Source: a bacterium endosymbiont of Escarpia laminata (GTDB lineage Bacteria > Pseudomonadota > Gammaproteobacteria > Chromatiales > Chromatiaceae). From it: DNA of 64,000 nt. Numbering within the stretch: the stretch's first letter is position 1; every line of letters begins with the position of its first letter. Below the pieces are notes generated by a model that saw only the letters and a list, made by a program, of their open reading frames with translations, was not told where the DNA came from and did not search any database. The stretch spans positions 1 through 64,000 of the forward strand of contig QGON01000066.1 in the NCBI GenBank assembly GCA_003660235.1, read 5' to 3'. Below, one piece after another: positions 4,267 to 64,000 of the stretch. The translations under genes were made by a program, and so were the position numbers.

Positions 4267-5490
4267 TCACCTGTCACCTTTCGCCGCAGCCACCCGCAAA
4301 CGCAGTGCATTGAGTTTGATGAAACCTTCCGCATCCTTCTGATCGTAAGCGCCCTCATCGTCCTCAAAAGTGGCGATGGACTCGTCAAACAGACTGTTGG
4401 TATCGGACTTACGGCCAACCACGTAGACGTTACCCTTGTAGAGTTTGAGCCTGACAACCCCGTTGACCACTTGCTGGGTCTGGTCGATGGCAACCTGCAG
4501 CATCTCCCGCTCCGGTGCGAACCAGTAACCGTTATAGACCAGCTTGGCATAACGCGGCATCAACTCGTCCTTCAGGTGGGCGGCCTCGCGGTCCAGGGTG
4601 AGTGACTCCATGGCACGATGTGCCTTCAACAGGATGGTGCCGCCGGGGGTTTCATAACAGCCGCGGGATTTCATGCCGACATAGCGATTCTCCACGATGT
4701 CCGCACGACCGATGCCGTTGTCGCCGCCCAGTTTGTTCAGGGTGGCCAAGAGAGTCGCCGGTGACATGGCCTCGCCATCGATGGCAACCACGTCGCCCTG
4801 CTCGAAGGTCAGCTCGATATACATCGATTTGTCCGGGGCCTGCTCCGGAGAGACCGACCAGCGCCACATATCCTCCCCCGGTTCTGTCCAGGGATCCTCC
4901 AAGTCGTAGCCTTCATAGGAGATGTGCAGCAGATTGGCATCCATGGAGTAGGGGGATTTCTTGCCCTCCCGCTTCATCTCTATAGGAATACCGTGGGTCT
5001 CAGCATAGGTCAGCAGCTTTTCACGGGAGTTGAGATCCCATTCACGCCAGGGGGCGATGATATGAATATCGGGACGCAGGGCATAGGCGCCCAGTTCAAA
5101 ACGCACCTGATCGTTGCCCTTGCCGGTGGCGCCGTGGGAGATGGCATCCGCCCCGGTCTCGTTGGCAATCTCGATCAGTCGCTTGGCGATCAGCGGCCGC
5201 GCAATGGAGGTGCCCAGCAGGTACTCGCCCTCGTATATGGCATTGGCGCGAAACATGGGGAAGACATAGTCCCGCACGAACTCTTCAGTGAGATCCTCGA
5301 TGTAGATCTCTTTGATGCCGGCGGCTTCCGCCTTGGCGCGTACAGGTTCCACCTCTTCGCCCTGACCGATGTCGGCAGTGAAGGTCACCACCTCACACTT
5401 GTATTCGTCCTGCAACCACTTGACGATAATGGAAGTATCCAGACCACCGGAATAGGCCAATACCACTTTCTTGACGCCCTCTGTCGACAT
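4267..5490 (-). CDS. argG: Argininosuccinate synthase
   Basis: Joins citrulline and aspartate with ATP to make argininosuccinate, the penultimate step of arginine synthesis. The 407-residue product is the usual bacterial type 1 length. The N-terminal P-loop [28 protein letters not shown], and [19 protein letters not shown] are all intact. The ATG at 5490 is preceded by TTTGGAGATGAACG on the coding strand. It is convergent with the DUF971 gene and divergent from the metallopeptidase at 5584. No argH or other arginine gene is next to it. Confidence 0.97.
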
Positions 5491-5583
5491 CGTTCATCTC
5501 CAAATTCTGTAATTCAGTCCGGAATCCCGGGAAACGGGTTAGTATACCGGATTATTCGCCTGTTGTTGCCAACGGAAGATACC

Positions 5584-6267
5584 GTGCACTATCTGCTTCT
5601 CATCACCCTTGTCCTTGCTCTGATATACGCACCCCAATGGTGGGTGCAGCATATCCTTTCACGTTATAACCGGCAGGATGAGGAGTTTCCCGGCACAGGG
5701 GGAGAACTGGCCCGCCATCTGCTTGACCGCTTTGAACTCAAAGACATTCGCGTTGAAGCCACCGAATCCGGTGACCACTACGACCCTGTCAGCAAGACCG
5801 TGCGACTCACCAGGGACAAAATGGAGGGCAGAACACTGACCGCCATCACAACCGCAGCCCACGAGGTCGGACACGCCATCCAACACGCCAGTGGTTACCG
5901 CCCTTTTCGTCTGCGCATGGGACTGGCCAGGATAGCGATAGTCAGCCAGAAACTGGGGTCATTCCTGCTCTTTCTTGCCCCCCTGCTGGCAGGCATTACC
6001 CGGGCACCAAGCAGTGGTGTAATAGTGCTGTTGGCCGCGATCACTACCATGGGAACCGGACTCATCGTCCAGCTTATCACCCTGCCGGTGGAGTGGGATG
6101 CCAGCTTCGGCAAGGCGATGCCGATCCTCACTCAGGGAAAATATATCGATGCCTCTCAGGAAAAAAAGGCCAAGCGGATACTGAAGGCCTGTGCGCTCAC
6201 CTATGTCGCCTCATCGTTGGCCGGACTTCTGAATTTCTGGCGCTGGATGCAGGTATTGAGACGATAA
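5584..6267 (+). CDS. YugP-family neutral zinc metallopeptidase (membrane)
   Basis: The product of about 227 residues is the usual size of the YugP family. It has an N-terminal membrane segment (YLLLITLVLALIYAP), the zinc site AAHEVGHAIQ, and two hydrophobic segments (FLLFLAPLLAG and VIVLLAAITTMGTGLIVQLI). The sequence LPVEWDASFGKAM near the third quarter is typical of the family. I chose the GTG at 5584 because GGAAG lies just upstream; the frame is open further upstream only because it runs antisense through argG. The physiological substrate is unknown. An inverted repeat at 6305-6339 follows the gene. Confidence 0.85.
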   Translation: MHYLLLITLVLALIYAPQWWVQHILSRYNRQDEEFPGTGGELARHLLDRFELKDIRVEATESGDHYDPVSKTVRLTRDKMEGRTLTAITTAAHEVGHAIQHASGYRPFRLRMGLARIAIVSQKLGSFLLFLAPLLAGITRAPSSGVIVLLAAITTMGTGLIVQLITLPVEWDASFGKAMPILTQGKYIDASQEKKAKRILKACALTYVASSLAGLLNFWRWMQVLRR

Positions 6268-6304
6268 CCGCTCTATCTGGTAGGAGATGATAGGATAGCC
6301 GATG

Positions 6305-6339
6305 AGGAGCCTCTGAATGAGATGCATTCAGGGGCTCCT
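6305..6339 (+). terminator. Stem-loop after the metallopeptidase, possible terminator
   Basis: AGGAGCCTCTGAATG (6305-6319) and CATTCAGGGGCTCCT (6325-6339) form a 15-bp stem with one G-T pair and a 5-base loop. No long T-run follows, so termination would be weak. The same word AGGAGCCTCTGA occurs in a similar hairpin at the rnhB stop (14190-14220) and inverted at 25619-25630, so this may instead be a small dispersed repeat. Confidence 0.5.
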
Positions 6340-6407
6340 TAAGCAATGTCGGTTCATAGAAGAAGCAGACGTATCTGAACGCCTGCCACACAATAGCGAA
6401 TAGAACC

Positions 6408-8615
6408 ATGCAACTTCGAAGACACCCGTTACGAGATAGACGGCTTCTCTCTTCTCTCGTGATGCTTCCTGCAATTTGTTTTCAGATTGGGAACGCCGCC
6501 GGATCCGACCCAATCTCCGAAGACTATTTTTTCGAAGAGCTGCCCGTGGTGCTCTCCGCAACTCGTCTCTCCCAATCCCTGGCAGATACCCCCACGGCAA
6601 TGACGATCATCGACAAAGAGATGATCCGTGCATCCGGTGCCAGAAATATCCCTGATCTGCTGCGACTAGTACCGGGTTTTGCAGTGGGCTTCTATTCTGG
6701 TTCCAGGGCCACCGCAACCTATCACGGTCTGGCGGACCAGTATGCACGCGACATGCAGGTGCTGATCGATGGGCGATCAGTTTACGATCCCGCATTTGGT
6801 GGCGTCGCATGGGCCGATATGCCGATCGAGGTCGACGAAATAGATCGTATCGAAGTGATCAGGGGACCCAATGCCGCCGCTTATGGTTCCAACTCATTTT
6901 CCGGCGTTGTCAATATCATTAGCGATCACCCGGCGGATCGTCCCGGCACAATGCTGAAAACCATCATAGGCGAAGGCAATGTACGCAAGATATATGGACG
7001 TCATGCCGGATCAGTTGGAAATTTCGCCTATAGGCTTTCAGCCAACTACGATGAGTATGACGGCTTTGAAGATCGTGAAGACAGCGCCGACACCCGCTGG
7101 TTCAACTTCCACGGAGAGCAAACATTGGATAACGACGACACGGTGGAGTTTCGTGTCGGTTTCAGTCAGGGCAACTACGGCGAAGGCTGGTCGGATATTT
7201 TTCAGCAGACCAGGGTATTGAACAATCGTTACAACTTCCAACAGATAACCTGGAAACACCAGCAATCCCCAAGCAATGAGTTTCAAATCAATTTTTATCA
7301 CAACTACCAGCAGATAGAGGACAGCTACCGTTCACCTATCATCTCTGACGTCATCAAAGGGTTGGACGACCTGCAAGGTTTTCCCGAGCCGATACGGCCT
7401 GACATCTTCGCCCTTGGGCTCTCTGGTGGGAACTACAATTTCCAGATGTTTCTGGATGAACTAAAACTCACCGACTCGCCTCTGACCCTCTCCTGGCTCG
7501 GTTTTGAGTCAGATAGATACGATCTGGAATTTCAGCAGACACTACAGACGTCAGAAAATCTACGGTTAGTGTGGGGAGCGGGTGCGCGGCAGGATCGCGG
7601 GGAGAGTGTCTGGATCTTCCATCAATACGATGCTATTACGCGGAACCAAATACGCCTCTTTGCTAACACAGAGTGGCACATCTCTCCCGCGTGGGTTATC
7701 AACGCTGGCGGAATGGTCGAGCGTTTTGAAGATAAGGATCCCTTCTTCTCTCCCCGCCTCGCAATCAATCATCATATGGATCAGAACAATACCTTCAGGG
7801 CCAGCGCTTCACGCGCCTACCGCATGCCCACACTGCTGGAGGACCACATCAACCTTGTGGTCTTTCTCGATGAGCCGCTCAATGATCTGAACACCTGGAT
7901 ATTGGCAACCGGAAACCTGGATCCACAATCCATCGACAGTTTTGAACTGGGATATCTGGGCAGTTTTCCTGAAATTGGCCTGATTCTGGATCTCAAACTG
8001 TTTCATGAAAAGATCAACAATATGATCAATGAAATACATAATTTAGACATTCCAGACCCGGACCGTGGACTGACCGATCCCATCGCCCTCGCAACATTGA
8101 ATAATTTCAACCAACTGATTCAGGAGGGCGCGGGCACCTACATAAACTCAGGTGAGGCGACAATCAATGGGCTGGAAGTAAATCTTGACTTCAGGCCGAC
8201 TCCCCGCGATTTGATTTTTCTCGGCTACAGCTATGCCAATACTTATGGCCAGGAAGCTTTCCTGATTCTGGATGGCACAATCCAATCCGATAATGGCATT
8301 AGTGATAATGCTGCAAGCCATACCTTCAGCATCCTCGGCAGCCATCGTTTCGACAGCGGTATTCAGATCAGTTCAGCCTACTACCATGTCGGCGAAATGA
8401 CATGGGGTGGTGAAGGCGACCTGATCCCAACCTTCAGACGCTGGGACGTGAGACTGGGGAAACAGTTCACTCTGCCGGGCATGGATGGGGAAATAGCGCT
8501 TATCGGACAAAACCTCAACGGTGGGCATGTGGATTTTTTCAACGCGCCGAATCGTGACTTAGTCAACCGATGGGAAACCCGTTTCTTCCTTCAGGCATCA
8601 CTGGGTTTCAGATGA
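6408..8615 (+). CDS. TonB-dependent outer-membrane receptor
   Basis: A 735-residue outer-membrane receptor. A signal peptide-like start (RRLLSSLVMLPAICFQIGNAAG) is followed by the plug domain with ELPVVLSATRLSQSLADTP, LLRLVPGF, DGRSVYDPAFGGVAW and IEVIRGPNAAAYGSNSFSGVVNI, the classical plug signature. The rest is a beta-barrel rich in alternating aromatic strands. It ends LQASLGFR, with a hydrophobic last strand as in other barrels. The ligand cannot be read from sequence; the plug is of the small-molecule (cobalamin, siderophore) receptor type. It lies 79 bp before a periplasmic binding protein and a hybrid sensor kinase in the same direction, with no permease or ATPase, suggesting sensing rather than, or in addition to, uptake. 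Confidence 0.9.
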   Translation: MQLRRHPLRDRRLLSSLVMLPAICFQIGNAAGSDPISEDYFFEELPVVLSATRLSQSLADTPTAMTIIDKEMIRASGARNIPDLLRLVPGFAVGFYSGSRATATYHGLADQYARDMQVLIDGRSVYDPAFGGVAWADMPIEVDEIDRIEVIRGPNAAAYGSNSFSGVVNIISDHPADRPGTMLKTIIGEGNVRKIYGRHAGSVGNFAYRLSANYDEYDGFEDREDSADTRWFNFHGEQTLDNDDTVEFRVGFSQGNYGEGWSDIFQQTRVLNNRYNFQQITWKHQQSPSNEFQINFYHNYQQIEDSYRSPIISDVIKGLDDLQGFPEPIRPDIFALGLSGGNYNFQMFLDELKLTDSPLTLSWLGFESDRYDLEFQQTLQTSENLRLVWGAGARQDRGESVWIFHQYDAITRNQIRLFANTEWHISPAWVINAGGMVERFEDKDPFFSPRLAINHHMDQNNTFRASASRAYRMPTLLEDHINLVVFLDEPLNDLNTWILATGNLDPQSIDSFELGYLGSFPEIGLILDLKLFHEKINNMINEIHNLDIPDPDRGLTDPIALATLNNFNQLIQEGAGTYINSGEATINGLEVNLDFRPTPRDLIFLGYSYANTYGQEAFLILDGTIQSDNGISDNAASHTFSILGSHRFDSGIQISSAYYHVGEMTWGGEGDLIPTFRRWDVRLGKQFTLPGMDGEIALIGQNLNGGHVDFFNAPNRDLVNRWETRFFLQASLGFR

Positions 8616-53788: not shown

Positions 53789-55327
53789 TTAATCGCCGTC
53801 ATCTTCGCCATAACCAGGAGCCTCTTCCGGCGGCGTTTTTCTGTTCAGCACGATGGCATTGCTTACCAACTGGTGAACACTGACGATCTGATACATGTCC
53901 ATGCCGTAGTAGGGCAGAACCTTGGTAAACTGACTCTTACAGATGGCACAGATCGCCGCCATGTGGGTAACACCTTTCTCGTTCATGACATTCTGAAGCG
54001 CTGTCATGCGAGGCAATGCACCCTTGACCCGAATTTCCATCAAGTCATCAGTAAGAAGACCACCGCCACCACCGCAGCAGAAGGTTCGTTCGTGGATCGT
54101 ATCCCACTCCATGTCATGGTAGTTGTTGCAAACCGCCTTGATGACATTACGAGGGATATCAAACTGGCCGCCGGGTGTGTCACCCATGCGGGTGGCGCGC
54201 GCCACGTTGCAGGAGTCGTGGAACGTGAGCGTCATTTCATCGTTCTCTGACTTATCCAGTTCCAGGGTACCCTGCTGGATCTCATTCCAGGTGAATTCGC
54301 AAATATGCTGCGGTACAGGGTAATCCGGATCCAGGAAATCGAAGGGGCCAGCCAATGTATTCAGAAAACTGTAGGCCACGCGCCAGGCGTGTCCACACTC
54401 ACCAAACACGATGCGCTTGACCCCCAACTCCAATGCGGCCTCACGTATCCGCAGGGAGATACGGCGCATGTTTTCGTAGGAACCGATAAACATGCCGAAG
54501 TTGGCCGCCTCAGACGCCGTGGTGCTCAGAGTCCAACTAACACCCGCTTCGTGAAATACCTTTCCGTAACCGATCAGGCCGTCTACATGGGGCTCTGCGA
54601 AGAAATCGGCAGAGGGGGTAACCAGCAGAATATCCGCGCCCTTGACATCCAGGGGATATTTGACGGCGACTCCATCCTCATCGTAAACATCCTCTTCCAG
54701 ACCTTCGAGGGTATTGGCAAGCGCAGGCCCCGGCAGGCCCAGATTATTGCCGATCTTGTATACCTTGGCGATGATCTCGTTACAGTATTTCTGTCCAATA
54801 CCCACGCTCGCCAGAATCTCACGGGCAGCCATGGAGATTTCTGCGGTATCGATGCCATAGGGACAAAAAACCGAGCAACGACGGCACTGTGAGCACTGAT
54901 GGAAATAGCTATACCAGTCGTCGAGCACCTCTTCCGTCAGATCGGCTGCGCCAACCAGTTTTGGGAAGTATTTACCCGCAAAGGTAAAGTAGCGACGATA
55001 GACCTTTCGCAACAGATCCTGGCGCCCGACGGGCATGTTCTTGGGATCATTGGTGCCCAGGAAGTAGTGGCACTTGTCCGTGCAGGAACCACACTTTACA
55101 CAGGAGTCCAGGTAGACCCGGAATGAGCGGTAGCGACTAAGCAGATCACCCATCTTCTCGATGGCCTTGTCATGCCAATCCTCCACCCTCTCACCTGGAA
55201 AGTTCAGTGGTTCCTGGTGCTCAGGTTTGGCCACGAAGCACGTGGAGTGCGACATAGCCCCTTCTTCGATATTCGGAACATCAACAAATTCTGAAAGTTC
55301 CGGTGTTTCAAATTTCGCCTTAGCCAT
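53789..55327 (-). CDS. dsrK: DsrK, HdrD-like catalytic subunit of DsrMKJOP
   Basis: A 512-residue cytoplasmic iron-sulfur protein. Two ferredoxin-type motifs (CVKCGSCTDKCHYF; CSQCRRCSVFCPYG) and two CCG-type domains with CNVARATRMG and RTFCCGGGGGLLTDD hold the special [4Fe-4S] cluster that acts on thiols. It handles the DsrC disulfide or persulfide. It sits 30 bp downstream of dsrM and 88 bp upstream of dsrL. Confidence 0.95.
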   Translation of the reverse strand: MAKAKFETPELSEFVDVPNIEEGAMSHSTCFVAKPEHQEPLNFPGERVEDWHDKAIEKMGDLLSRYRSFRVYLDSCVKCGSCTDKCHYFLGTNDPKNMPVGRQDLLRKVYRRYFTFAGKYFPKLVGAADLTEEVLDDWYSYFHQCSQCRRCSVFCPYGIDTAEISMAAREILASVGIGQKYCNEIIAKVYKIGNNLGLPGPALANTLEGLEEDVYDEDGVAVKYPLDVKGADILLVTPSADFFAEPHVDGLIGYGKVFHEAGVSWTLSTTASEAANFGMFIGSYENMRRISLRIREAALELGVKRIVFGECGHAWRVAYSFLNTLAGPFDFLDPDYPVPQHICEFTWNEIQQGTLELDKSENDEMTLTFHDSCNVARATRMGDTPGGQFDIPRNVIKAVCNNYHDMEWDTIHERTFCCGGGGGLLTDDLMEIRVKGALPRMTALQNVMNEKGVTHMAAICAICKSQFTKVLPYYGMDMYQIVSVHQLVSNAIVLNRKTPPEEAPGYGEDDGD

Positions 55328-55357
55328 CTGCAGCCCTCTTAGGCCAAGTTGATATTC

Positions 55358-56080
55358 TTAGGATTCTTCGAGCTTTTTCGCCCAAGGAGCCAAGTGTCGT
55401 TTCTCGCGTGGATTATCGACCTGGTTTCTGGACGGGCTGAAGAATATGCCAGGGATATGCAGCAATTTGCTGAAGGGCAAAATGATCATCAGCACAACAA
55501 CAAGTGTCAGATGCATGATCAGCGCAAAATCCATCGGCAGTTCGCCACCACTGAGGGTAAACAGTCCGCCGAAGAACTGTTTGACCATAACAACGTCAGT
55601 GTGGACAAGGAACTTCATCATCAGGCCGCTAAAGCCGATGAAGATGAGCAATAGCAACATCAGGTAATCTGAAGGCGCTGAAATATAGCGTACACGATCA
55701 ACGAAAATACGACGCAGGAAGAGACCGCCGAGTCCGGCAACCATGGCAAATCCTGCATAGATGCCAAAAGGCTGGATCAGTGCGATCGGAAGCGGAACAG
55801 GATCGACAAAATAACGGACATGCCGCGCCAACACTACAAACAACCCCATGTGGAACATCCAGGAAAAGATCCAGGTCCACTTGGTGCTTTTGAAAAGGCT
55901 TTCAAAGAAAACCACTTCACGGAACATACGCAGTACCACACCGGCCTGAGTCACAGGAGCCGGAGTAGTGGGAATCTTTAATGGTGCAGGTGTCTTGGCG
56001 TACTGCACAATTTTACGTGCCAGACCAAGTACCAGAACGATGGTCGCTACGATAAACAGCAACGCGTAGACTGTTGACAT
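55358..56080 (-). CDS. dsrM: DsrM, b-type cytochrome membrane subunit
   Basis: A 240-residue NarI-like membrane protein with five predicted segments (VYALLFIVATIVLVLGLA, WIFSWMFHMGLFVVLARHV, LLLLLIFIGFSGLMMKFLV and others) and histidines positioned for two b hemes. It passes electrons between DsrK and the quinone pool. It starts 31 bp after a hairpin that follows dsrC. Confidence 0.94.
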   Translation of the reverse strand: MSTVYALLFIVATIVLVLGLARKIVQYAKTPAPLKIPTTPAPVTQAGVVLRMFREVVFFESLFKSTKWTWIFSWMFHMGLFVVLARHVRYFVDPVPLPIALIQPFGIYAGFAMVAGLGGLFLRRIFVDRVRYISAPSDYLMLLLLIFIGFSGLMMKFLVHTDVVMVKQFFGGLFTLSGGELPMDFALIMHLTLVVVLMIILPFSKLLHIPGIFFSPSRNQVDNPREKRHLAPWAKKLEES

Positions 56081-56110
56081 GTTCCTGCGTTCCTCAGAAG
56101 GATTAAATGA

Positions 56111-56134
56111 CCGGGAGGAAAAAACTCCTCCCGG
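56111..56134 (-). promoter_or_regulatory. Stem-loop between dsrC and dsrM
   Basis: CCGGGAGGA (56111-56119) and TCCTCCCGG (56126-56134) make a perfect 9-bp stem with an AAAAAC loop, 15 bases after the dsrC stop and 31 before the dsrM start. No T-run follows on the transcribed strand. Such a structure would protect the 3' end of a dsrC message or cause partial termination, fitting the higher DsrC demand as a sulfur carrier. Confidence 0.75.
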
Positions 56135-56148
56135 ACTTCAGCTACTGC

Positions 56149-56481
56149 TTAGATGCAGCCAGTAGGCTTGGGCAGACCGGCAAAGCGGCAAGCCTGCTTA
56201 CCAGGACCGTAAGGGAACAGACCGTACAAATACTTGCTGTTGCCCTTCTCTTTGCCCAGTTTCTTGCCAACAGCCTTGGTCAGAACGCGGACAGCAGGAG
56301 CGATCTGATACTCTTCGTAGTATTCACGCAGGAAGTTGATGATATCCCAGTGCTCATCAGTCAGCTCAAGGTCATCTTCCTTCGCCATCTCTTCTGCAAC
56401 TACGGGCTCCCAATCAGCCAGAGTTACCAGGTAACCCTCTTCGTCAGTCTCATAAACTTTACCGTTAGCTTCGATAGCCAT
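56149..56481 (-). CDS. dsrC: DsrC, sulfur-carrier protein with both cysteines
   Basis: 110 residues. The flexible C-terminal arm reads ACRFAGLPKPTGCI, with Cys98 and Cys109 eleven residues apart as in canonical DsrC, giving the trisulfide and disulfide chemistry between DsrEFH, DsrAB and DsrK. ATG 56481 follows GGAGAAATACT; a longer in-frame start at 56607 overlaps dsrH and is unlikely. It is the intact counterpart of the cysteine-less paralogue at 62313. Confidence 0.97.
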   Translation of the reverse strand: MAIEANGKVYETDEEGYLVTLADWEPVVAEEMAKEDDLELTDEHWDIINFLREYYEEYQIAPAVRVLTKAVGKKLGKEKGNSKYLYGLFPYGPGKQACRFAGLPKPTGCI

Positions 56482-56524
56482 AGTATTTCTCCAATTTAGA
56501 GTTAAATTATTCAGTTGGGATTTA

Positions 56525-56830
56525 TCAAACCCAGGCTGAAACTTTATCGTTTTCAACAGCCAGCTTGACAAAACCCGCGTAATCCACAACTTCAATGCCT
56601 TCAGCAAGCTTCTCTTGCGAGATGCCGCGGGCCTTCAGGTCAGAACCAAGTGCATAAAACTTGACACCCGATGCTGCAGCCACCTTCTCAGCAACGGCGT
56701 TACCCTTCATTGCCCCATAAACGCCATCTTCATACATCAGAACGGCGCTACCCTCTTTTGCATAACCCAGGCAATCTGCCAGTGAGTTCTTCTCAAAAGG
56801 GGATTTGTTAACAGTATGCAAAGTACTCAT
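56525..56830 (-). CDS. dsrH: DsrH (TusB-like) sulfurtransferase subunit
   Basis: 101 residues, third subunit of the DsrEFH hexamer that hands sulfur to DsrC. The conserved cysteine is Cys20 in SLADCLGYAKEG, the same number as in A. vinosum DsrH. It begins 15 bases after dsrF. Confidence 0.95.
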   Translation of the reverse strand: MSTLHTVNKSPFEKNSLADCLGYAKEGSAVLMYEDGVYGAMKGNAVAEKVAAASGVKFYALGSDLKARGISQEKLAEGIEVVDYAGFVKLAVENDKVSAWV

Positions 56831-56845
56831 GCGATCTCTCCGCCT

Positions 56846-57256
56846 TTAGAAGCTATAGATAACATCCTGGTCATCCAGGACGTCCGCCAATTCAGCGCGA
56901 CTGACGAGACGGATGGAGTCCTTCTCTGCCCAATCGTCATCTTCGTCTTCCCAGGTGAGAGGCATCAGGTCATCAAGGGTCAGGCCCCGCTCTTCCAGAG
57001 ACTCTTTCTCCACATAGAGCTTGGTAACATCGTAATCACCCAACGCCTTGTAAGTGGTGGAGAAGTTCTTCATATCGGACTCAGAGGTATCCTGACCTTC
57101 GAGCAGCTGATAGACCCCATCTCCGATAAACGCCAGACTGACATCCTGATCGAATGCAGCACCGATCAGCACAACCTCCAATGACTCCCACGCATAGATA
57201 GTGCCATAGGGGGCACGGCGGTTGAGATACATGAATTTCTTGATTTTTTCAGACAT
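56846..57256 (-). CDS. dsrF: DsrF (TusC-like) sulfurtransferase subunit
   Basis: 136 residues of the DsrE/TusC fold: FMYLNRRAPYGTIYAWESLEVVLIGAAFDQ and VSLAFIGDGVYQLLEGQDTS, which is the DsrF signature. It contains no cysteine, as in the A. vinosum subunit's lack of an essential one. It lies between dsrE and dsrH with 16-17 base gaps. Confidence 0.95.
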   Translation of the reverse strand: MSEKIKKFMYLNRRAPYGTIYAWESLEVVLIGAAFDQDVSLAFIGDGVYQLLEGQDTSESDMKNFSTTYKALGDYDVTKLYVEKESLEERGLTLDDLMPLTWEDEDDDWAEKDSIRLVSRAELADVLDDQDVIYSF

Positions 57257-57272
57257 CGTTCAACCTCTATAC

Positions 57273-57665
57273 TCAATCACCAAAAACCATGAGACGCTCG
57301 GACTGTATACCCGCCTCAATCAGCTGACCGAGACCGGAGATCCGGAATCCGTCAGCGATATTCTGGGCATCTTTACCGTTACGCTGCATCTCACCCTCGT
57401 CCACGATACCGCGACGTTGTGCGGCTGCCACGCAGACAACCATGTCGAGATCGTGCTCCTTGGCCAGTTCAGACCAGCGGTTGACGATGTTCCTGTCATC
57501 CTGGGGAGGTGTCGTCAGATTGGTACCGTTGTTCACGCCATCATGATAGAAGAAGACACGCATGATCTCGTGCCCGGCATCCAGCGCGGCTTTGGCGAAA
57601 TGGTAGGCTGAATCAGTCGCTTGATGCTGATAGGGCCCTTCGTTTACCTGAATCGCAAATTTCAT
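57273..57665 (-). CDS. dsrE: DsrE (TusD-like) sulfurtransferase subunit
   Basis: 130 residues. The active-site cysteine is Cys78 in DMVVCVAAAQRRG, counting from the ATG at 57665, identical in position to A. vinosum DsrE Cys78, which carries the sulfur to DsrC. A TTG one codon upstream is possible. DsrEFH with dsrL marks the cluster as oxidative rather than sulfate-reducing. Confidence 0.96.
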   Translation of the reverse strand: MKFAIQVNEGPYQHQATDSAYHFAKAALDAGHEIMRVFFYHDGVNNGTNLTTPPQDDRNIVNRWSELAKEHDLDMVVCVAAAQRRGIVDEGEMQRNGKDAQNIADGFRISGLGQLIEAGIQSERLMVFGD

Positions 57666-57708
57666 CAATTATAACCTTTCTGTTGAAAGACTTGAGCTTC
57701 GATCCGAA

Positions 57709-58782
57709 TCAGAAACGGATATGAGCAGAAGCGTTCAGGTTGGCACGACCGCCACGCCAGTTATCGATATGATACTTGGTGAAAGGCAATCCGGTCTTCT
57801 CGAAGAAGCTCGGCCATCCGATACGCTCGGCCCACTCGCCCATGCGCTCGTAGTCTTTTGCGTCTGCCTTGTAGGCAGCCAGGATCTGCTTGACGATCTT
57901 GGAGACCTCGGGCCAGCGCGGAGGATTGTTCGGCACGCCGGAGGCAACCAGCTTGTGGAAGGTTGGCTTGGAACGTGCGTTGGAGTGCTTGCCACCGACC
58001 CAGATTGCGAAATTGGAGTGCTCCGGATCGTTGATCTGCATCGGCGGACAGGGCGGGAAGCAGGCGCCGCAACAGATGCACTTCTTCTCATCTACTTCGA
58101 GAGAAGGCTTGCCGTTGACCATCGCGGGACGGATTGCCGCCACCGGGCAACGCGCCACAACTGTAGGACGCTCACAGACATTACCGACCTGAGAGTGATC
58201 GATCTTCGGCGGCTTGACGTGCTGAATGTTGATCGCGATATCACCCTGACCACCGCAGTTGATCTGACAGCAGGAAGAGGTCAGACGAACACGGTTCGGC
58301 ATCTCTTCATGGGTGAACTCATCGATGATCTCATCCATCAGCGCTTTAACAGCACCGGATGCGTCCGTTCCGGGAATATCGCAGTGTAACCAACCCTGGG
58401 TATGGGATACGGTGGAGACGGAATTACCGGTACCACCAATCGGGTTGCCGTGAGCCGTCAATGCGTCGATCAGCGGCTGAACCTTGGATTCCTCGCTAAC
58501 CATGAACTCCATGTTGGAGCGAATGGTAAAACGGATATAGCCTTCCGCATAATCATCAGCGATATCCATCAACTCGCGAATCTGATGAATGTCCATCTGA
58601 CGGGACGTGGCCGCACGGACAGTCCATATCTCGTCACCACTATGAGCCACATGATGCAAAACACCAGGGCGCGGACGATCGTGATACTTCCAGTTGCCGT
58701 AATTTTTCTTCATTACAGGATGCAGGAACTCCTGTATATCACGTACGCCTATCTCGTCTGGCATGCGAGGTGCGTCAGCCAT
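57709..58782 (-). CDS. dsrB: Dissimilatory sulfite reductase beta subunit
   Basis: About 357 residues. The siroheme-cluster motifs RLTSSCCQINCGGQGDIAI and the ferredoxin insert CICCGACFPPCPPM are present, together with PRPGVLHHVAHSGDEIWTV and TVSHTQGWLHC. It forms the DsrAB tetramer that, in this setting, oxidises DsrC-bound sulfur to sulfite. ATG 58782 follows TGGAGGTTAGC. A hairpin separates it from dsrA. Confidence 0.97.
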   Translation of the reverse strand: MADAPRMPDEIGVRDIQEFLHPVMKKNYGNWKYHDRPRPGVLHHVAHSGDEIWTVRAATSRQMDIHQIRELMDIADDYAEGYIRFTIRSNMEFMVSEESKVQPLIDALTAHGNPIGGTGNSVSTVSHTQGWLHCDIPGTDASGAVKALMDEIIDEFTHEEMPNRVRLTSSCCQINCGGQGDIAINIQHVKPPKIDHSQVGNVCERPTVVARCPVAAIRPAMVNGKPSLEVDEKKCICCGACFPPCPPMQINDPEHSNFAIWVGGKHSNARSKPTFHKLVASGVPNNPPRWPEVSKIVKQILAAYKADAKDYERMGEWAERIGWPSFFEKTGLPFTKYHIDNWRGGRANLNASAHIRF

Positions 58783-58849
58783 GCTAACCTCCAAATTTCA
58801 AAATCGAATTCTATTTTACGCAACAGCGTTGATATGTGGTTGACATGAG

Positions 58850-58883
58850 ACAAGTCACCGGGAAATAAATCCCAGCGACTTGT
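58850..58883 (-). promoter_or_regulatory. Stem-loop between dsrA and dsrB
   Basis: ACAAGTC (58850-58856) and GACTTGT (58877-58883) form a perfect outer stem, and CGGGA with TCCCAG inside pair further, leaving an AATAAA loop. It begins 13 bases after the dsrA stop. A structure at this place would stabilise or punctuate the message between the two subunits. Confidence 0.65.
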
Positions 58884-58895
58884 TTCATCGTCTTA

Positions 58896-60134
58896 CTAAG
58901 CTTTTCGCTCAGTCCACTTGGCAGCTTCCTCATCCCAGTTGTCCATACGAACATAGGGATTGGTACGAGGCTGAGAGATCATATTCGGATCGATTTCGAT
59001 ACCGATACCTTCCAGGAAGTTGGTCAGACCAATACGCTCGATCATCTCACCGGTACGCTCGTGCTCCAGTGCGTTCTCCGCAAAGAAGTCCAGAACTTCG
59101 GTACCCAACTCTTCCAGCCACTCAAAATCCTCATCGGTTTCCATCTTGTGGAAAGGCACGATGACTGTACCCATCAGATCGCCGATCTTCAGGGTACGCT
59201 TACCGCCAATCAGGATGCTAACGCCACCATCATCACCCGGAGAGAGGGCCTTGTTCATGACGTTCAGGCAGTGCATGCAACGCACGCAGTTGCCGTTATC
59301 AACAGCCAGGGTATCGTCGTCGTTCAGTGAGAGTGCCTTGGTCGGGCAGCGAGTGATGACATTGTCGATCACATACTTGCGGCCTTTTTTCTCCACGAAA
59401 GCCTTGACCTCAGCCTGGTCGACCTTCATGTCGTCGCGCCATGTACCGATGACAGCGAAATCAGAACGATGAATGGCATTCATGCAGTCGTTCGCGCAGC
59501 CGGAAACCTTATACTTCATCTTGTATGGCAGAGCCGGACGATGCAGATCGTCAAGCGCATTGTTCACCAGGGTGCGCATTGCCCGGCCTTCGTCGAAGTT
59601 GGACTGCTCGCAGCGGGCAGCACCGACGCAGGACATGGAGGTACGCACGGCGGGACCCGCGCCACCCATGTCGAAGCCCAGCTCATTGATTTCATTAAAG
59701 AAGGGCTGAACGTTCGCAGAGGAGCAACCCTGGAACATGATATCGCCGGACTGGCCGATACCGCAGATCAGACCGGATCCGTACTTCTCCCAGATATCGC
59801 ACATGGTGCGCAGTGTCTTGGTATCGAAGTGAGAGCCTGGAGGTGGCATGATGCGAATGGTGTGAAATTCAGCCGCATCAGGGAATTTGGGGGTTCCGTC
59901 CTCGTTCTTCAGCTCGGTAAAGCGGGGGATGACACCACCACCGTAGCCTATAACACCAACGGTGCCGCCCTTCCAGTAACCCTTCTTGGTCTCGTAGGAG
60001 GTCTCCAGCTGGCCCAGCAGGTCAACTGCAATGTCGTTATCTTTCGCAAGGCGCTTGATACCGCTGATAAAGCTTGGCCAGGGGCCGCTCTCCAGCTGAT
60101 CAAGCATGGGGGTGTCATGCATCTGTTTTGCCAT
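58896..60134 (-). CDS. dsrA: Dissimilatory sulfite reductase alpha subunit
   Basis: About 412 residues. The siroheme-[4Fe-4S] binding cysteines lie in SCVGAARCEQSNFDE and KVSGCANDCMNAIHRSD, and the ferredoxin domain has CPTKALSLND and CVRCMHCLNVMNKAL. Sulfite-binding arginine-rich text RTSMSCVGAARC precedes it. ATG 60134 after GGGAGAAAGAGTG. First gene of the dsr run, so its upstream region (60135-60641) holds the control of the cluster. Confidence 0.97.
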   Translation of the reverse strand: MAKQMHDTPMLDQLESGPWPSFISGIKRLAKDNDIAVDLLGQLETSYETKKGYWKGGTVGVIGYGGGVIPRFTELKNEDGTPKFPDAAEFHTIRIMPPPGSHFDTKTLRTMCDIWEKYGSGLICGIGQSGDIMFQGCSSANVQPFFNEINELGFDMGGAGPAVRTSMSCVGAARCEQSNFDEGRAMRTLVNNALDDLHRPALPYKMKYKVSGCANDCMNAIHRSDFAVIGTWRDDMKVDQAEVKAFVEKKGRKYVIDNVITRCPTKALSLNDDDTLAVDNGNCVRCMHCLNVMNKALSPGDDGGVSILIGGKRTLKIGDLMGTVIVPFHKMETDEDFEWLEELGTEVLDFFAENALEHERTGEMIERIGLTNFLEGIGIEIDPNMISQPRTNPYVRMDNWDEEAAKWTERKA

Positions 60135-60346
60135 CACTCTTTCTCCCAATGGTCGTTTGTGTAGGGTGTTTGGCCGGTTAATATCCTGTTTTAGTTAGCC
60201 CGGCCATAACACCGAGCGCAGGAACAGCCCTTTCCCCTGCAATACAATACCGTTGCAGGCGAAGACCTGCTCCTACTGGCGGCCAATTTTAGGAGTTCCT
60301 AATGCAGCACCATATCCTTCCGATGGGGGGGGGATCCGGCATTCTT

Positions 60347-60364
60347 CTATCCCATATGGGATAG
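60347..60364. promoter_or_regulatory. Perfect palindrome CTATCCCATATGGGATAG, candidate operator
   Basis: CTATCCCATATGGGATAG is an 18-bp perfect dyad (20 bp with the flanking T and A), about 213 bp upstream of dsrA and 278 bp upstream of the 60642 gene. Its half-sites of nine bases are the right size for a dimeric regulator. The regulator is unknown. Confidence 0.6.
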
Positions 60365-60572
60365 ATGCCACTCGCTCCACGCTTTATTGCACACTTATCA
60401 GCGCACTAAATATCTAACAATTACAATCAGTAAGAAAATATAATTGAGTTTGCAGACATATAAAGCACCGTAAATCCTAAATCAGCTATATCCCTATTAA
60501 TAAAATATGATTGATTCAACAACCTGGGCCGTGAACACCAAATACCTCACGAATAGTTGAGTAAATTACTAT

Positions 60573-60601
60573 GTAATTACTCTCTCCAATTCGTTATAAT
60601 C
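60573..60601 (+). promoter_or_regulatory. Possible promoter of the divergent module
   Basis: A consensus TATAAT at 60596-60601 lies 41 bases before the ATG at 60642. The -35 place, TGTAAT at about 60573, is a poor match, so an activator may be needed. Weak evidence. Confidence 0.4.
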
Positions 60602-60641
60602 TCACCCCTGAAACAATTTTGACCCAAGCGTGGCCTAAACA

Positions 60642-60818
60642 ATGCTCTATTTAAGTGAAGTAATGATGCAGAATCCTGACTTCGAAACATTTGAACAGCT
60701 TCAGACCGCCGTCAAAGAGCACTCAAAATCAGAGATGTTTTTCCGTATCGACGTAAAGCCGCCCTATCCGGATACACCGGAGAACTGGGAAGACCGACTG
60801 GAAGCCAGTTTCACCTAA
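60642..60818 (+). CDS. 58-residue conserved-looking small protein
   Basis: ATG at 60642 to TAA at 60816-60818 encodes 58 residues, MLYLSEVMMQNPDFETFEQL at the start and ending LEASFT. The text is compact and acidic with PPYPDTPENWEDRL near the end, unlike random frames. No ribosome site is strong. It starts the plus-strand gene group that runs away from dsrA and is 26 bases ahead of the next gene. I do not recognise a family. It is short enough to be missed by gene finders with a 60-codon cut-off. Confidence 0.6.
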   Translation: MLYLSEVMMQNPDFETFEQLQTAVKEHSKSEMFFRIDVKPPYPDTPENWEDRLEASFT

Positions 60819-60844
60819 CACCTGTTACACAACGAGAAGTGCCC

Positions 60845-61555
60845 GTGAAATATCTCGAATCAGAAACCTTCATCGGTGATGCGGAATGCTCAGATGATGC
60901 CATCAAGCCGACCCAACAGCTTGAGGAACGACTCAAAAAGCTGCTTGGAGAGGTCAACACACTTCCAAACGACGTCTCTATCGAGCAACGCCTCAAGCCC
61001 CTCCTTGAAAGCGGCTATATCATGCTTGATCTTGACCGCTTGGATGAAGCCTGGGAGATAACCCGCCCCACACTCGACCAATCCATCTCAGCCGGGCTGT
61101 GGCTGCAGGCGGTCGAAGCCTGCGACATTCTCTATCAGACCGGCAATGATGACGCCCTCAGAGCGCTGGCCCACGGCATCTGGCTCGGCGTCACCTTCCC
61201 CATCGAACCGGGGCTGAGCGTCGCCATGCTGCAGCATCTCGTTGACGAAACTCCGGACAATTCCGATGGCGCGGCAGTTGCCGCCGCCACTGCCGGCTAT
61301 ATTGCCGACATGCGTGCCGAGGGGCCGGACCGGGAGGAGTTGAAGTTTTTCACCAACCAATTGATGGGCCAGGTCGCCCGCCGCCACAGCCAGGTCGAGG
61401 AGCAGGAGATCTTCGACTTCTGGGTGGAGCGCATGGAACTGGATGACCCGTCCAAGTTTTTACCCCGACTGGCCCAGGTGCTTGACATAGTCAACGAGAA
61501 CGGCTGGTGGTTCGATCGCGAAGAACTGAGAGGCAGGATCCCAGCGGATCCGTAA
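60845..61555 (+). CDS. Helical protein of unknown function in the dsr-divergent module
   Basis: About 236 residues, all predicted helices, acidic, with no membrane segment. One stretch around residues 50-110 (DLDRLDEAWEITRPTLDQSI, LWLQAVEACDILYQTGNDDA) looks like tetratricopeptide-type repeats. The GTG at 60845 follows GAGAAGTGCCC; a GTG at 60839 is the alternative. Not a known Dsr protein. It is co-directional with the 58-residue gene and the Cmx6-like gene (17-base gap), so the three are likely one operon. Confidence 0.75.
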   Translation: MKYLESETFIGDAECSDDAIKPTQQLEERLKKLLGEVNTLPNDVSIEQRLKPLLESGYIMLDLDRLDEAWEITRPTLDQSISAGLWLQAVEACDILYQTGNDDALRALAHGIWLGVTFPIEPGLSVAMLQHLVDETPDNSDGAAVAAATAGYIADMRAEGPDREELKFFTNQLMGQVARRHSQVEEQEIFDFWVERMELDDPSKFLPRLAQVLDIVNENGWWFDREELRGRIPADP

Positions 61556-61572
61556 TTCAAGAGCTATCTATC

Positions 61573-62232
61573 ATGCACTGGCAAGAAGAAATCGATGAAA
61601 CGGTCTATATCGTTCCCGACAACGTAATGGACCTTGCCTACCAGATAAAATGCCGGACACTGCCGGTCGACCACGCCTGGCCGCTGGCTGCAGCGATACA
61701 TCAGGCACTGCCCTGGTTTGCAGAGGAGCCGTTGGCTGGATTACACCTCATCTATGGCGCCGACTCCGGCAATGGTTGGGAGCGCCCCCGGGATGCCGCT
61801 GCCACCCTCTATCTCTCACGCCGTACCCGCCTTGTCCTGCGCCTGCCCAAACACCGCCTCCCCGACGCCGAGGCCCTTACAGGACAGACACTGGAGGTAG
61901 CGGACAATCTATTGGAGATCGGCAAGGGCACACCCCGGCTGCTCGGCATGACCACCACCCTCTACTCTCGCTTTGTCGTGGATGAAACGGACGGCGACGA
62001 GGATCAGTTCATAACAGCTGCAGTCGAAGGCCTGCGCGCCCTGAATCTGCGTTTCACGAAAGTACTCAGCGGCAGGCGCTACGCTTTCTCCACACCGGAG
62101 GGTGAGATTTCCACGCGCAGCCTGATGGTGGCCGGTCTGCCTCTGGATCACGCGGTGAGGTTACAGGAGAATGGTCTCGGCCCCCTCCGAAATCGCGGAT
62201 TCGGCTTGTTCGTCCCCCAAAAGTCTGTTTAA
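61573..62232 (+). CDS. Orphan type I-MYXAN Cas6/Cmx6-family protein
   Basis: About 219 residues. The order and spacing of motifs match Cmx6 (Cas6 of the Myxococcus-type I system): LPVDHAWPLAAAIHQALPWF near residue 40, LHLIYG, RRTRLVLRLPKHRLPDA, ALTGQTLEVADNLLEIG, SRFVV, an ADMRALN-like alpha region, and a C-terminal glycine-rich loop LQENGLGPLRNRGFGLFVP typical of RAMP-fold Cas6 endoribonucleases. No cas gene or CRISPR array is near. Between the helical gene and the DsrC-like gene, it is part of the dsr-divergent unit. Function unknown: RNA binding or cleavage is likely from family. Confidence 0.8.
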   Translation: MHWQEEIDETVYIVPDNVMDLAYQIKCRTLPVDHAWPLAAAIHQALPWFAEEPLAGLHLIYGADSGNGWERPRDAAATLYLSRRTRLVLRLPKHRLPDAEALTGQTLEVADNLLEIGKGTPRLLGMTTTLYSRFVVDETDGDEDQFITAAVEGLRALNLRFTKVLSGRRYAFSTPEGEISTRSLMVAGLPLDHAVRLQENGLGPLRNRGFGLFVPQKSV

Positions 62233-62312
62233 TATATAGTGTTTTAATGATTTTCTTGATTGGCGGGTGTATGCAAATAGATCCGTCACAAATGCACACG
62301 AAGGAGAAATCA

Positions 62313-62657
62313 ATGTCGTACGAAGTAAATGGTGCAACCGTCGAGGCCGACGATCACGGTTACCTGGTCAACACAGCCGATTGGAACGAGGATGTCGCCA
62401 AAGCCATCGCTGCCGCTGAAGGTGTTGAACTGTCCGAGAAGGGCTGGGATATCGTCAACTACCTGCGTGATGAGTACATCAACAACAACGGCAACCAGCC
62501 CAATGAACGTAACATGGTCAAGCACTTCAAGAAAGTCTGGACCGATCTCCCAAAGGTGGACACCAAGGCACTCTACAATGAGTTCCCCACCGGCCCCGCA
62601 AAACAGGCGGGTAAAATCGCCGGCACGCCTGAGACCAAACGTAAGGGCGGGTATTAA
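62313..62657 (+). CDS. DsrC/TusE-family paralogue lacking both catalytic cysteines
   Basis: 114 residues. It aligns well by eye with DsrC: YEVNGATVEADDHGYLVNTA (as in DsrC's VYETDEEGYLVTLADWE), GWDIVNYLRDEY and GPAKQAGKIAGTPETK. Where DsrC has Cys98 (KQACRFAGLP) this has Gly or Ala (KQAGKIAGTP), and the C-terminal Cys-containing tail is replaced by KRKGGY. So it cannot carry sulfur through the usual chemistry. ATG 62313 follows AAGGAGAAATCA. It closes the plus-strand group. A regulatory or RNA-linked role is possible. Confidence 0.88.
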   Translation: MSYEVNGATVEADDHGYLVNTADWNEDVAKAIAAAEGVELSEKGWDIVNYLRDEYINNNGNQPNERNMVKHFKKVWTDLPKVDTKALYNEFPTGPAKQAGKIAGTPETKRKGGY

Positions 62658-62763
62658 TCAGGTGAAAGGTTAAAGGCGAAAGGTGGCCGTGCCAATGGAT
62701 AGGCCGAACTCCGTCGTTGCTGCCGGTGATGACTGAAAGACTTTAAAGGTTTGATGCATGATC

Positions 62764-62786
62764 CTGGCAAATCTCCGATTTGCCAG
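62764..62786 (+). terminator. Stem-loop after the DsrC-like gene
   Basis: CTGGCAAATC and GATTTGCCAG form a perfect 10-bp stem around a TCC loop. It is followed by CCTTTAACCTTTTGCC on the plus strand, which is T-rich but not a clean run. It separates the plus-strand module from the convergent 62804 gene and may end both. Confidence 0.6.
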
Positions 62787-62803
62787 CCTTTAACCTTTTG
62801 CCT

Positions 62804-63187
62804 TTAGCCTTCCTTAACCTTCTCCAACAGCGGCTCCAGATCTGATTCCCCAACAGGAAAAGTGCAAACCCCAAACAGCGGATAGCGCTGCTGCACCTTA
62901 TCGAGCCGATATTGGTGGTTGGGATCGTATAGGACGATGACCCGGCTATCTGGACTGTATTTCTGCAGGGCCGCCATCAGTGACTCGAGATTACTCATCC
63001 TGTCACGAAATTCTGCATCAAAATTGAACTCAGTGACCACCACTGCAGGCGTGTGTGTTTTCAGCCAGGCCTGCGCCTTTCTCACCGAATTGACTGTCTC
63101 GACCTGATAGCCGTGACGTTGATAAAGCGGCGTGAAATTGGGATAACCACCAAACTCCACCACCGCAAGTAATTCCCGATCTTTCAT
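62804..63187 (-). CDS. Receiver-like hypothetical protein
   Basis: 127 residues with alternating strand/helix text of a response-regulator-type fold: LLAVVEFGGYPNF, AVVVTEFNFDAEFRDR, DSRVIVLYDPNHQY and LFGVCTFPVGESDLEPLLEKV. The usual phospho-aspartate triad is not clear; the third strand ends in TEFNFD rather than LLD-type text. It could be a pseudo-receiver. It is divergent from the 63257 gene and shares the region between them, so the two may be functionally paired. ATG at 63187. Confidence 0.65.
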   Translation of the reverse strand: MKDRELLAVVEFGGYPNFTPLYQRHGYQVETVNSVRKAQAWLKTHTPAVVVTEFNFDAEFRDRMSNLESLMAALQKYSPDSRVIVLYDPNHQYRLDKVQQRYPLFGVCTFPVGESDLEPLLEKVKEG

Positions 63188-63256
63188 GTGCTTGATTTTG
63201 TCCCGTTAGGAAACGAAGATTCAAACCGAAGTTTAACTGCCAAGGCGAGTTTGTTC

Positions 63257-63574
63257 ATGCGGCTGAATCTGATTATTGGTGAATATTCCTTGGATATGGA
63301 GATCCAGGACGGCTATCTGGAGACGATGACCGATTCTTTCGGCAAAATGGATCAGGACATGAGTCAGGGTGTGCAACTCGGTCAGCAGTGGGTGGAAAAT
63401 CCCTCTCAACTCCAGCGTTGCCAAGTCGCAGCGGACAAACTGCTGTCTGCGATTGAAAACCACAATGAGACTTTGGCGATGTTGACGGGCGGGTATATCG
63501 TCTCCCACCTTTCCAGCATCAAGCAGGTCAAGATCAACACCGAGGGGGAACCGGCGGAGACTGAATTCCACTAG
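63257..63574 (+). CDS. Hypothetical helical protein
   Basis: About 105 residues, acidic and helical: LIIGEYSLDMEIQDGYLETM, MDQDMSQGVQLGQQWV, CQVAADKLLSAIENHNETLAML. The ATG at 63257 lies eight bases after GGCGAG; the frame is open upstream to 63188 but that part is short of a ribosome site. No family recognised. It is divergent from the receiver-like gene and precedes a REP-like repeat. Confidence 0.65.
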   Translation: MRLNLIIGEYSLDMEIQDGYLETMTDSFGKMDQDMSQGVQLGQQWVENPSQLQRCQVAADKLLSAIENHNETLAMLTGGYIVSHLSSIKQVKINTEGEPAETEFH

Positions 63575-63595
63575 GGATAGCGCATAGTTTAGTTC

Positions 63596-63685
63596 GTAGG
63601 CCTGATCAAGCGTAGCGGATCAGGCACAGGGTTCGGCACAACCAACGGGCTTCGCGCCGGTTCCGCTACGCTTGAACCGACCTAC
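63596..63685. repeat. REP-like repeat pair after the 63257 gene
   Basis: The element opens with GTAGGCCTGATCAAGCGTAG and forms a hairpin through GCCTGATC and GATCAGGC, then closes with CCGCTACGCTTGAACCGACC plus TAC. Bounds are GTAGG and CCTAC as at 46090-46180. It lies between the 63257 gene and the minus-strand gene at the window edge. Confidence 0.8.
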
Positions 63686-63697
63686 ATCTCTGTTCTC

Positions 63698-64000
63698 TCA
63701 TAGTTTATTCTGCTCGACTAATACCGCCATCGGCTGCGCGGACTCAGTACCATGCTTGTCGAACAGGTTGAGCAGACGCGTTCCCAGATGCGCCCAGTGC
63801 TGTTCCCCGCTGGCGGCTATACGCGTCAATCTTGACAGGTCCCCGGTTGCGACCCATCTATCATAGGCTTTGATCAAGGCGGGAAAGAGGGTCTTGCGCA
63901 TCCCCCCAAGACTGCCGACATAGAAGTGCAGTGAGGCAGCATCCGCCTTTTTCACAAGCGCCGGGAGGGTCACCAGGCAATCGGCCCAATGATCCCGTAC
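63698..64000 (-). CDS. C-terminal part of a hypothetical gene (runs off the window)
   Basis: The frame is open from 64000 to the stop at 63698, giving about 100 residues that begin VRDHWADCLVTLPALVKKAD and include FPALIKAYDRWVATGDLSRL. The start lies beyond the window. Helical, no recognised motif. It is separated from the 63257 gene by the REP-like repeat. Confidence 0.6.
   Translation of the reverse strand, partial: VRDHWADCLVTLPALVKKADAASLHFYVGSLGGMRKTLFPALIKAYDRWVATGDLSRLTRIAASGEQHWAHLGTRLLNLFDKHGTESAQPMAVLVEQNKL

Follow-up and report, generated by a model that had tools for sequence, protein, structure and literature searches.

A cysteine-less DsrC-fold protein of the RspA type, linked to reverse-Dsr genes and to a Cas6-like gene in Gammaproteobacteria

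The locus and the family of the cysteine-less protein

The window, by which we mean the whole stretch of 64,000 nucleotides analyzed here, carries on its minus strand a reverse-Dsr cluster that comprises dsrC, dsrEFH, dsrB, and dsrA and extends up to position 60149, the names dsrEFH and dsrB being our own reading of the open reading frames. On the plus strand, divergent to dsrA, lies a block of four genes: a 58-aa open reading frame (Sm58), a gene for a 238-aa protein, a Cas6-like gene (Cas6L), and a gene of the RspA type, in that order (Table 1).

Table 1. Positions of the genes of the divergent block and of the reverse-Dsr genes discussed
Feature	Position	Strand	Length, score, or other evidence
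Sm58, conserved small protein of 58 aa, first gene of the divergent block	60642-60818	+	tblastn in relatives
238-aa protein between Sm58 and Cas6L	60839-61555	+	family not recognized
Cas6L, 219 aa, directly upstream of rspA	61573-62232	+	PF09559 176 bits, Cas6 fold
rspA-type gene, cysteine-less DsrC-fold protein, tail RKGGY	62313-62657	+	114 aa, PF04358 108.1 bits
Canonical dsrC, with Cys98 and Cys109	56149-56481	-	110 aa, TIGR03342 164 bits
dsrA, divergent to the plus-strand block	58896-60149	-	TIGR02064 545.6 bits (C57:58902-60104)

The rspA-type gene starts with the ATG at 62313, which is preceded by AAGGAG, and its stop codon occupies 62655-62657; an alternative ATG of the same frame lies upstream at 62247, and it is the start at 62313 that relatives conserve. 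The product contains no cysteine at all and ends in AKQAGKIAGTPETKRKGGY. The sequence-only reading had described it as a paralog of the canonical DsrC at 56149 that has lost both catalytic cysteines and kept the core fold, and both halves of this description are borne out. The canonical protein begins MAIEANG, has C98 and C109, and ends in KQACRFAGLPKPTGCI. The cysteine-less protein scores above cut-off in profile searches with both PF04358 (cut-off 24.9 bits) and TIGR03342 (92 bits, cut-off 53.5), and phmmer matches it to A. vinosum DsrC (1yx3) with E=1.4e-16. Its AlphaFold model (mean pLDDT 91.6, with the minimum in the last residues) has the DsrC fold, matching eight DsrC/TusE structures in Foldseek at E<=4e-5; beyond these eight, Foldseek gave no significant match. 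Homology to the DsrC family is far above chance.

Within that family, the protein is not DsrC proper, which has Cys98 and Cys109, and it is not TusE, which has a penultimate Cys; against the E. coli-type TusE model it reaches 78 bits, where the cut-off is 191. TusE-like sulfur transfer is ruled out because the penultimate Cys is gone, and a DsrC fold without thiols makes sulfur carriage impossible at the known sites. Cysteine-less DsrC-like proteins of this kind were reportedly named RspA, function unknown, in a BBA review by Venceslau et al. in 2014. That definition (DsrC-like, without conserved arm cysteines, from sulfur oxidizers) fits the protein, whose group is very probably RspA.

Other genes of the locus and genome deserve mention. 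The host genome (G000, 4.25 Mb, 71 contigs) encodes four PF04358 proteins; among its paralogs, one (L068, G000:C53:122443) has arm cysteines at another spacing, 98 and 111, and another (L069, G000:C33:94829) has no cysteine and a longer tail. A second dsrA lies on another contig (G000:C2:83405-84610, 605 bits). Directly 3' of rspA are two short genes, 62804-63187 on the minus and 63188-63574 on the plus strand, which are near rspA in some relatives only; the product of the former has a weak response-regulator-like match. The 238-aa protein has no Pfam or NCBIfam match, and it is rejected as a constant part of the module: it is present in 28 of the 33 relatives' loci, but its profile matches none of 12 open reading frames found in the corresponding gap of other lineages. 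Eleven of these 12 are similar to one another, and the two that were scanned (L106 and L113) both match TauD. Members of this family, most of them about 300 aa long, take the place of the 238-aa gene between dsrA and cas6L in L095, L096, L100, L106, L109, L110, L113, L124, L128, L134, and L145.

Conservation of RspA and its genomic companions

RspA constitutes an ancient group of orthologs whose tail is nearly invariant. The window protein and its 33 relatives all lack both arm cysteines and all end in RKGGY (34/34), and among the 117 distinct RspA sequences of all fetched sets the tail is RKGGY in 116 and GKAGY in one. At the Cys98 column these sequences have G, T, S, L, A, N, or R, never Cys (0/117), and at the Cys109 column all have Gly (117/117). 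Fourteen contain a Cys within their last 95 residues, in no case at a DsrC position, and nine of the 14 make up one subclade with GGCP (L171-L179). Within the genus, dN/dS of RspA is 0.013-0.074 (15 pairs). The phylogeny proposed in the sequence-only reading places the 34 RspA-type rows in one clade apart from DsrC with support 99/94; the tree has 70 rows and 113 columns, and with so few columns many of its other forks are unresolved. In a separate clade of DsrC-like proteins without arm cysteines (L151-L157 and L159, support 99/99), the tail is TKGEH. RspA and DsrC share 18 positions that are conserved and identical in both, including F91, P92, P95, K97, Q98, G104, and P106 at the base of the arm. 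The near-invariant five-residue end, together with the retained base of the arm (FP, P, KQ, G, P), points to a fixed partner into which RspA docks.

The gene directly upstream, in which a putative RNA-handling protein had been suspected, indeed encodes a Cas6-like protein. In addition to its PF09559 match, Cas6L scores 102.7 bits against TIGR02807, the type I-MYXAN Cas6 model, just over the cut-off of 98.85. It has the ferredoxin-like RAMP fold (Foldseek match to 8fcu, E=6.9e-17), and its nearest solved relative by both sequence and fold is the Cas6 of a type I-B CRISPR-associated transposon (8fcj). In 102 Cas6L sequences, His34, Gly68, Trp69, Arg84, Arg90, Gln198, and Gly203 are invariant, and the glycines of the Gly-rich loop are kept in 100-102. 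By analogy with Cas6 enzymes, His34 presumably occupies the position of the catalytic His. A search for array-like direct repeats (>=20 bp within 200 bp) found none in 55000-64000, no cas genes are among the profiled neighbors of Cas6L, and Rfam has no match in 56000-64000. Folding 29 Cas6L-rspA spacers singly and judging them by eye revealed no hairpin common across genera. By its repeats (checked in 55000-64000 only) and by Cas1 (in the 369 genomes described below), Cas6L does not belong to a CRISPR-Cas locus, and the idea that it is a CRISPR remnant is not supported.

The association of the two genes extends well beyond the window. Cas6L lies directly upstream of RspA in 29 of the 33 relatives' loci, 28 of which have the 238-aa gene as well. 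Among the named loci, which are the best 80 of at least 564 relatives, Cas6L lies at most 1 kb upstream of RspA on the same strand in 53. The remaining 27 show no such arrangement, in two cases because sequence is missing. In the 25 loci with a broken link that were examined, RspA stands alone among unrelated genes. Hosts of the named loci include Sedimenticola, Ca. Thiodiazotropha, Thioalkalivibrio, Thiothrix, Beggiatoa-like bacteria, Thioglobus/Ruthia, Lamprocystis, and Thiocystis; two cultured strains with the module are Sedimenticola selenatireducens DSM 17993 (L078) and Lamprocystis purpurea DSM 4197 (L127).

To survey the class, we used 369 evenly drawn gammaproteobacterial genomes, calling RspA by a match of at least 126 bits that reaches the end of its profile (matches were listed down to about 115 bits) and Cas6L by E<=1e-30. 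RspA is present in 109 genomes, Cas6L in 118, DsrA in 117, and Cas1 in 133; RspA coincides with Cas6L in 106 and with DsrA in 102, and Cas6L coincides with DsrA in 110. Where RspA and Cas6L share a contig, Cas6L is directly upstream in 88 of 95 genomes. The survey rejects chance adjacency of RspA to an RNA-handling gene, and the neighborhood noticed in the window thereby becomes a linkage conserved across Gammaproteobacteria. Cas1, for its part, is found in 49 of the 118 genomes with Cas6L and missing from 69, which amounts to no association (Fisher p=0.16; the Fisher p-values ignore kinship). Five genomes of only 1.0-1.1 Mb (G072, G174, G287, G319, and G382) have RspA, Cas6L, and DsrA, and no Cas1.

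DsrA and RspA do not coincide perfectly. Fifteen DsrA-positive genomes of the set have no RspA at >=126 bits, and seven genomes (G100, G160, G218, G251, G331, G349, and G350) have RspA and no DsrA match. In six of these seven, at most 1.7 kb of contig remains on the side of dsrA, and two (G251 and G350) have a cut dsrA there; thus, the RspA genomes without DsrA are at least partly an assembly effect. In a draw of 170 genomes from the phylum, a tail-reaching RspA match occurs in one (G487) of the 41 that are DsrA-positive besides the genome of the window, so reverse Dsr has no general need for RspA, and the family is nearly confined to Gammaproteobacteria. On a viral contig (L205, IMGVR_UViG_3300032087_002997), an RKGGY-tailed RspA is encoded at 2977-3318 among neighbors that PHROGs identify as phage-type; we noticed no Cas6-like gene in the 6.3 kb read there.

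Sm58 follows Cas6L closely. By tblastn, it is present in 89 of the 102 fetched Cas6L loci, always upstream and on the same strand; the 13 loci that lack it have space for it in seven cases and none in six. It is absent from every fetched locus that lacks Cas6L. In a further check of 17 chosen genomes, six of the seven that have Cas6L but no DsrA match proved to encode Sm58, as did G487 and one of the seven that have DsrA but no Cas6L; neither of the two controls had it. Pfam, NCBIfam, and PHROGs hold no Sm58 family, one of 14 members having a chance-level NCBIfam match. Cas6L with Sm58 is the most constant genomic companion of RspA outside dsr.

Published data bear on expression. In Ca. Thiodiazotropha endolucinida, three DsrC/TusE genes rank among those with the highest transcription (PMC13137333, Table 1). 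One, peg.3241, lies beside tusB and near tusD and should be dsrC; another, peg.3252, lies eleven genes away and has a median TPM of 4825-6626 (PMC13137333). In Ca. T. endoloripes (L077), the RKGGY protein is the sole further DsrC-family gene found near dsrC. Peg.3252 is therefore probably rspA, which would place an orthologue among the most transcribed symbiont genes. Four DsrC-family proteins have been detected in the Riftia symbiont (PMC7787665), A. vinosum has four extra DsrC-family genes whose role is open (PMC3368242), and an extra DsrC-like gene, THSYN_22565, has a locus number near dsr (PMC5944118). We found no occurrence of RspA in the accessible text of PMC10504309 or PMC13293266, and the mention of cas6 and dsrC in PMC10952691 is confined to a module table. 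In the literature searched for RspA with DsrC, DsrC with Cas6, and orphan Cas6, which excludes most subscription journals, we recognized no paper on this pairing. A described function for a cysteine-less group, or lack of expression, had been named as what would overturn the sequence-only reading; apparently neither holds, as the searched literature yielded no described function for RspA and the orthologue is probably highly transcribed.

Possible roles of RspA and Cas6L

In Gammaproteobacteria, RspA is accessory to sulfur oxidation by reverse Dsr, and we are highly confident both of its identity and of the conserved module in which it stands. Cas6L appears to serve sulfur-oxidation genes and no longer CRISPR immunity. 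How the two might act together is a more tentative matter. In RspA, the DsrC fold has been retained and the thiol arm exchanged for the RKGGY tail. Most likely, RspA is redox-inert and serves as an adaptor that binds proteins, its tail docking into a single fixed partner, and the most likely partner or co-worker is Cas6L, a predicted RNA-binding protein. The two, perhaps with Sm58, could bind or cut cellular RNA, for which dsr transcripts are a candidate, and this binding or cutting may couple dsr expression to sulfur supply. We infer a physical interaction, an RNA target, and a regulatory role. Of the decoy, regulator, or adaptor proposed in the sequence-only reading, regulator or adaptor is the right class of idea, given a fold that is unable to perform DsrC thiol chemistry at either known site and is conserved in its own right; any such activity would be putative.

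As a whole, the explanation that we favor makes RspA a redox-inert adaptor with a DsrC fold that serves reverse-Dsr oxidation, probably together with a repurposed, CRISPR-independent Cas6 and by control at the level of RNA. We hold it only tentatively, and the element of RNA control, taken by itself, is likewise somewhat short of probable. Several observations count against this explanation: the 27 of 80 named loci where RspA is apart from Cas6L, the viral RspA for which the 6.3 kb read gave no Cas6L match, the lack of a hairpin common to the 29 spacers and of an Rfam match in 56000-64000, and the single RspA among 41 DsrA-positive genomes of the phylum. A bolder form, which seems doubtful, is that across Gammaproteobacteria a Cas6 taken over from CRISPR now specializes in regulating reverse-Dsr oxidation through RNA processing, with RspA as adaptor or sensor and Sm58 as third part, a system kept in tiny symbiont genomes and whose DsrC-like part a phage has acquired. 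It is speculation that the Tyr-capped GG end supports carrier chemistry like that of ubiquitin-like sulfur carriers.

Alternatively, RspA could be a competitor or plug that occupies DsrAB, DsrEFH, or DsrK without sulfur and so tunes flux, the linkage to Cas6L reflecting shared regulation only. The presence of DsrA in 102 of 109 RspA genomes and the 18 positions shared with DsrC, arm base included, are consistent with this, and rspA in trans in many genomes and on the phage contig, with no Cas6L in the stretch read, keeps such a model alive. However, RspA shows relaxed conservation at 44 further positions that DsrC conserves, DsrEFH binding in A. vinosum depends on the penultimate Cys (PMC3397948), and the constancy of Cas6L as a neighbor is left unexplained. 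We regard this alternative as rather unlikely.

An improbable alternative is that RspA is a DNA-binding regulator of the dsr promoter region, preserving a regulatory function of DsrC but not its redox chemistry. A. vinosum DsrC is stated to bind DNA upstream of the dsr cluster (PMC5944118), the gene block is divergent from dsrA across the intergenic region 60150-60641, and the RspA tail is basic. RspA is acidic overall, however (pI 4.8-6.1, median 5.2, in 34 sequences), and the Foldseek matches to the winged helices of LexA and SelB are insignificant (E>4).

It is more improbable still that Cas6L is an ordinary CRISPR gene, a chance neighbor of a DsrC paralog with an unrelated role. Its score just over the type I-MYXAN Cas6 cut-off and the 49 genomes with Cas1 would fit, but the distribution of Cas6L tracks DsrA (110/118) rather than Cas1, the window has no array-like repeats in 55000-64000, and Cas6L is kept in the five small genomes that lack Cas1. 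Finally, a decaying or neutral dsrC/tusE duplicate, which the loss of both catalytic cysteines might suggest if viewed in isolation, is already refuted by the low dN/dS, the near-invariant tail, and the single clade across the class.

If the favored explanation of an RspA adaptor working with Cas6L is true, a Cas protein has been repurposed to control energy metabolism. Sulfur oxidation by reverse Dsr sustains ecosystems at vents, in seagrass, and in oxygen-minimum zones, and the co-occurrence supplies a concrete, testable pairing in which RspA is joined by a Cas6 free of CRISPR and by the 58-aa Sm58. There is also a warning for annotation, since family score alone is likely to label rspA a sulfur carrier and cas6L a CRISPR protein.

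Comparison with known systems

With the RspA group, as reportedly defined by Venceslau et al. 2014, the protein has in common that it is DsrC-like, lacks the arm cysteines, and comes from sulfur-oxidizer hosts; we did not find the RKGGY tail, a Cas6-like partner, and the 58-aa gene mentioned together in the searchable literature. DsrC itself (A. vinosum 1yx3, A. fulgidus 1sau) resembles RspA in fold, in 38% identity over the structural match, and in the base of the C-terminal arm, but RspA is without Cys98 and Cys109, and its arm is two residues longer and ends in RKGGY where that of DsrC ends in PTGC(I/V). TusE is of the same family; in contrast to it, RspA falls far under the TusE cut-off and lacks the penultimate Cys, which is strictly conserved in the DsrC family as the sulfur-binding site (PMC3397948).

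Cas6L, in turn, resembles the Cas6/Cmx6 of type I-MYXAN systems and the type I-B transposon Cas6 (8fcj) in sequence, fold, and Gly-rich loop. It differs from them in being linked to dsr, in having no association with Cas1, and in lacking cas genes among its profiled neighbors. The DsrC/TusE-like auxiliary genes of phages are a parallel to RspA in that they encode the DsrC fold with one or both cysteines missing (PMC8190135, PMC4164917): five such proteins have neither Cys motif (PMC8190135), and dsrC_1 is without the second Cys (PMC4164917). RspA and RKGGY are unmentioned in the accessible parts of these two papers, but the viral contig L205 does encode an RspA with the RKGGY tail.
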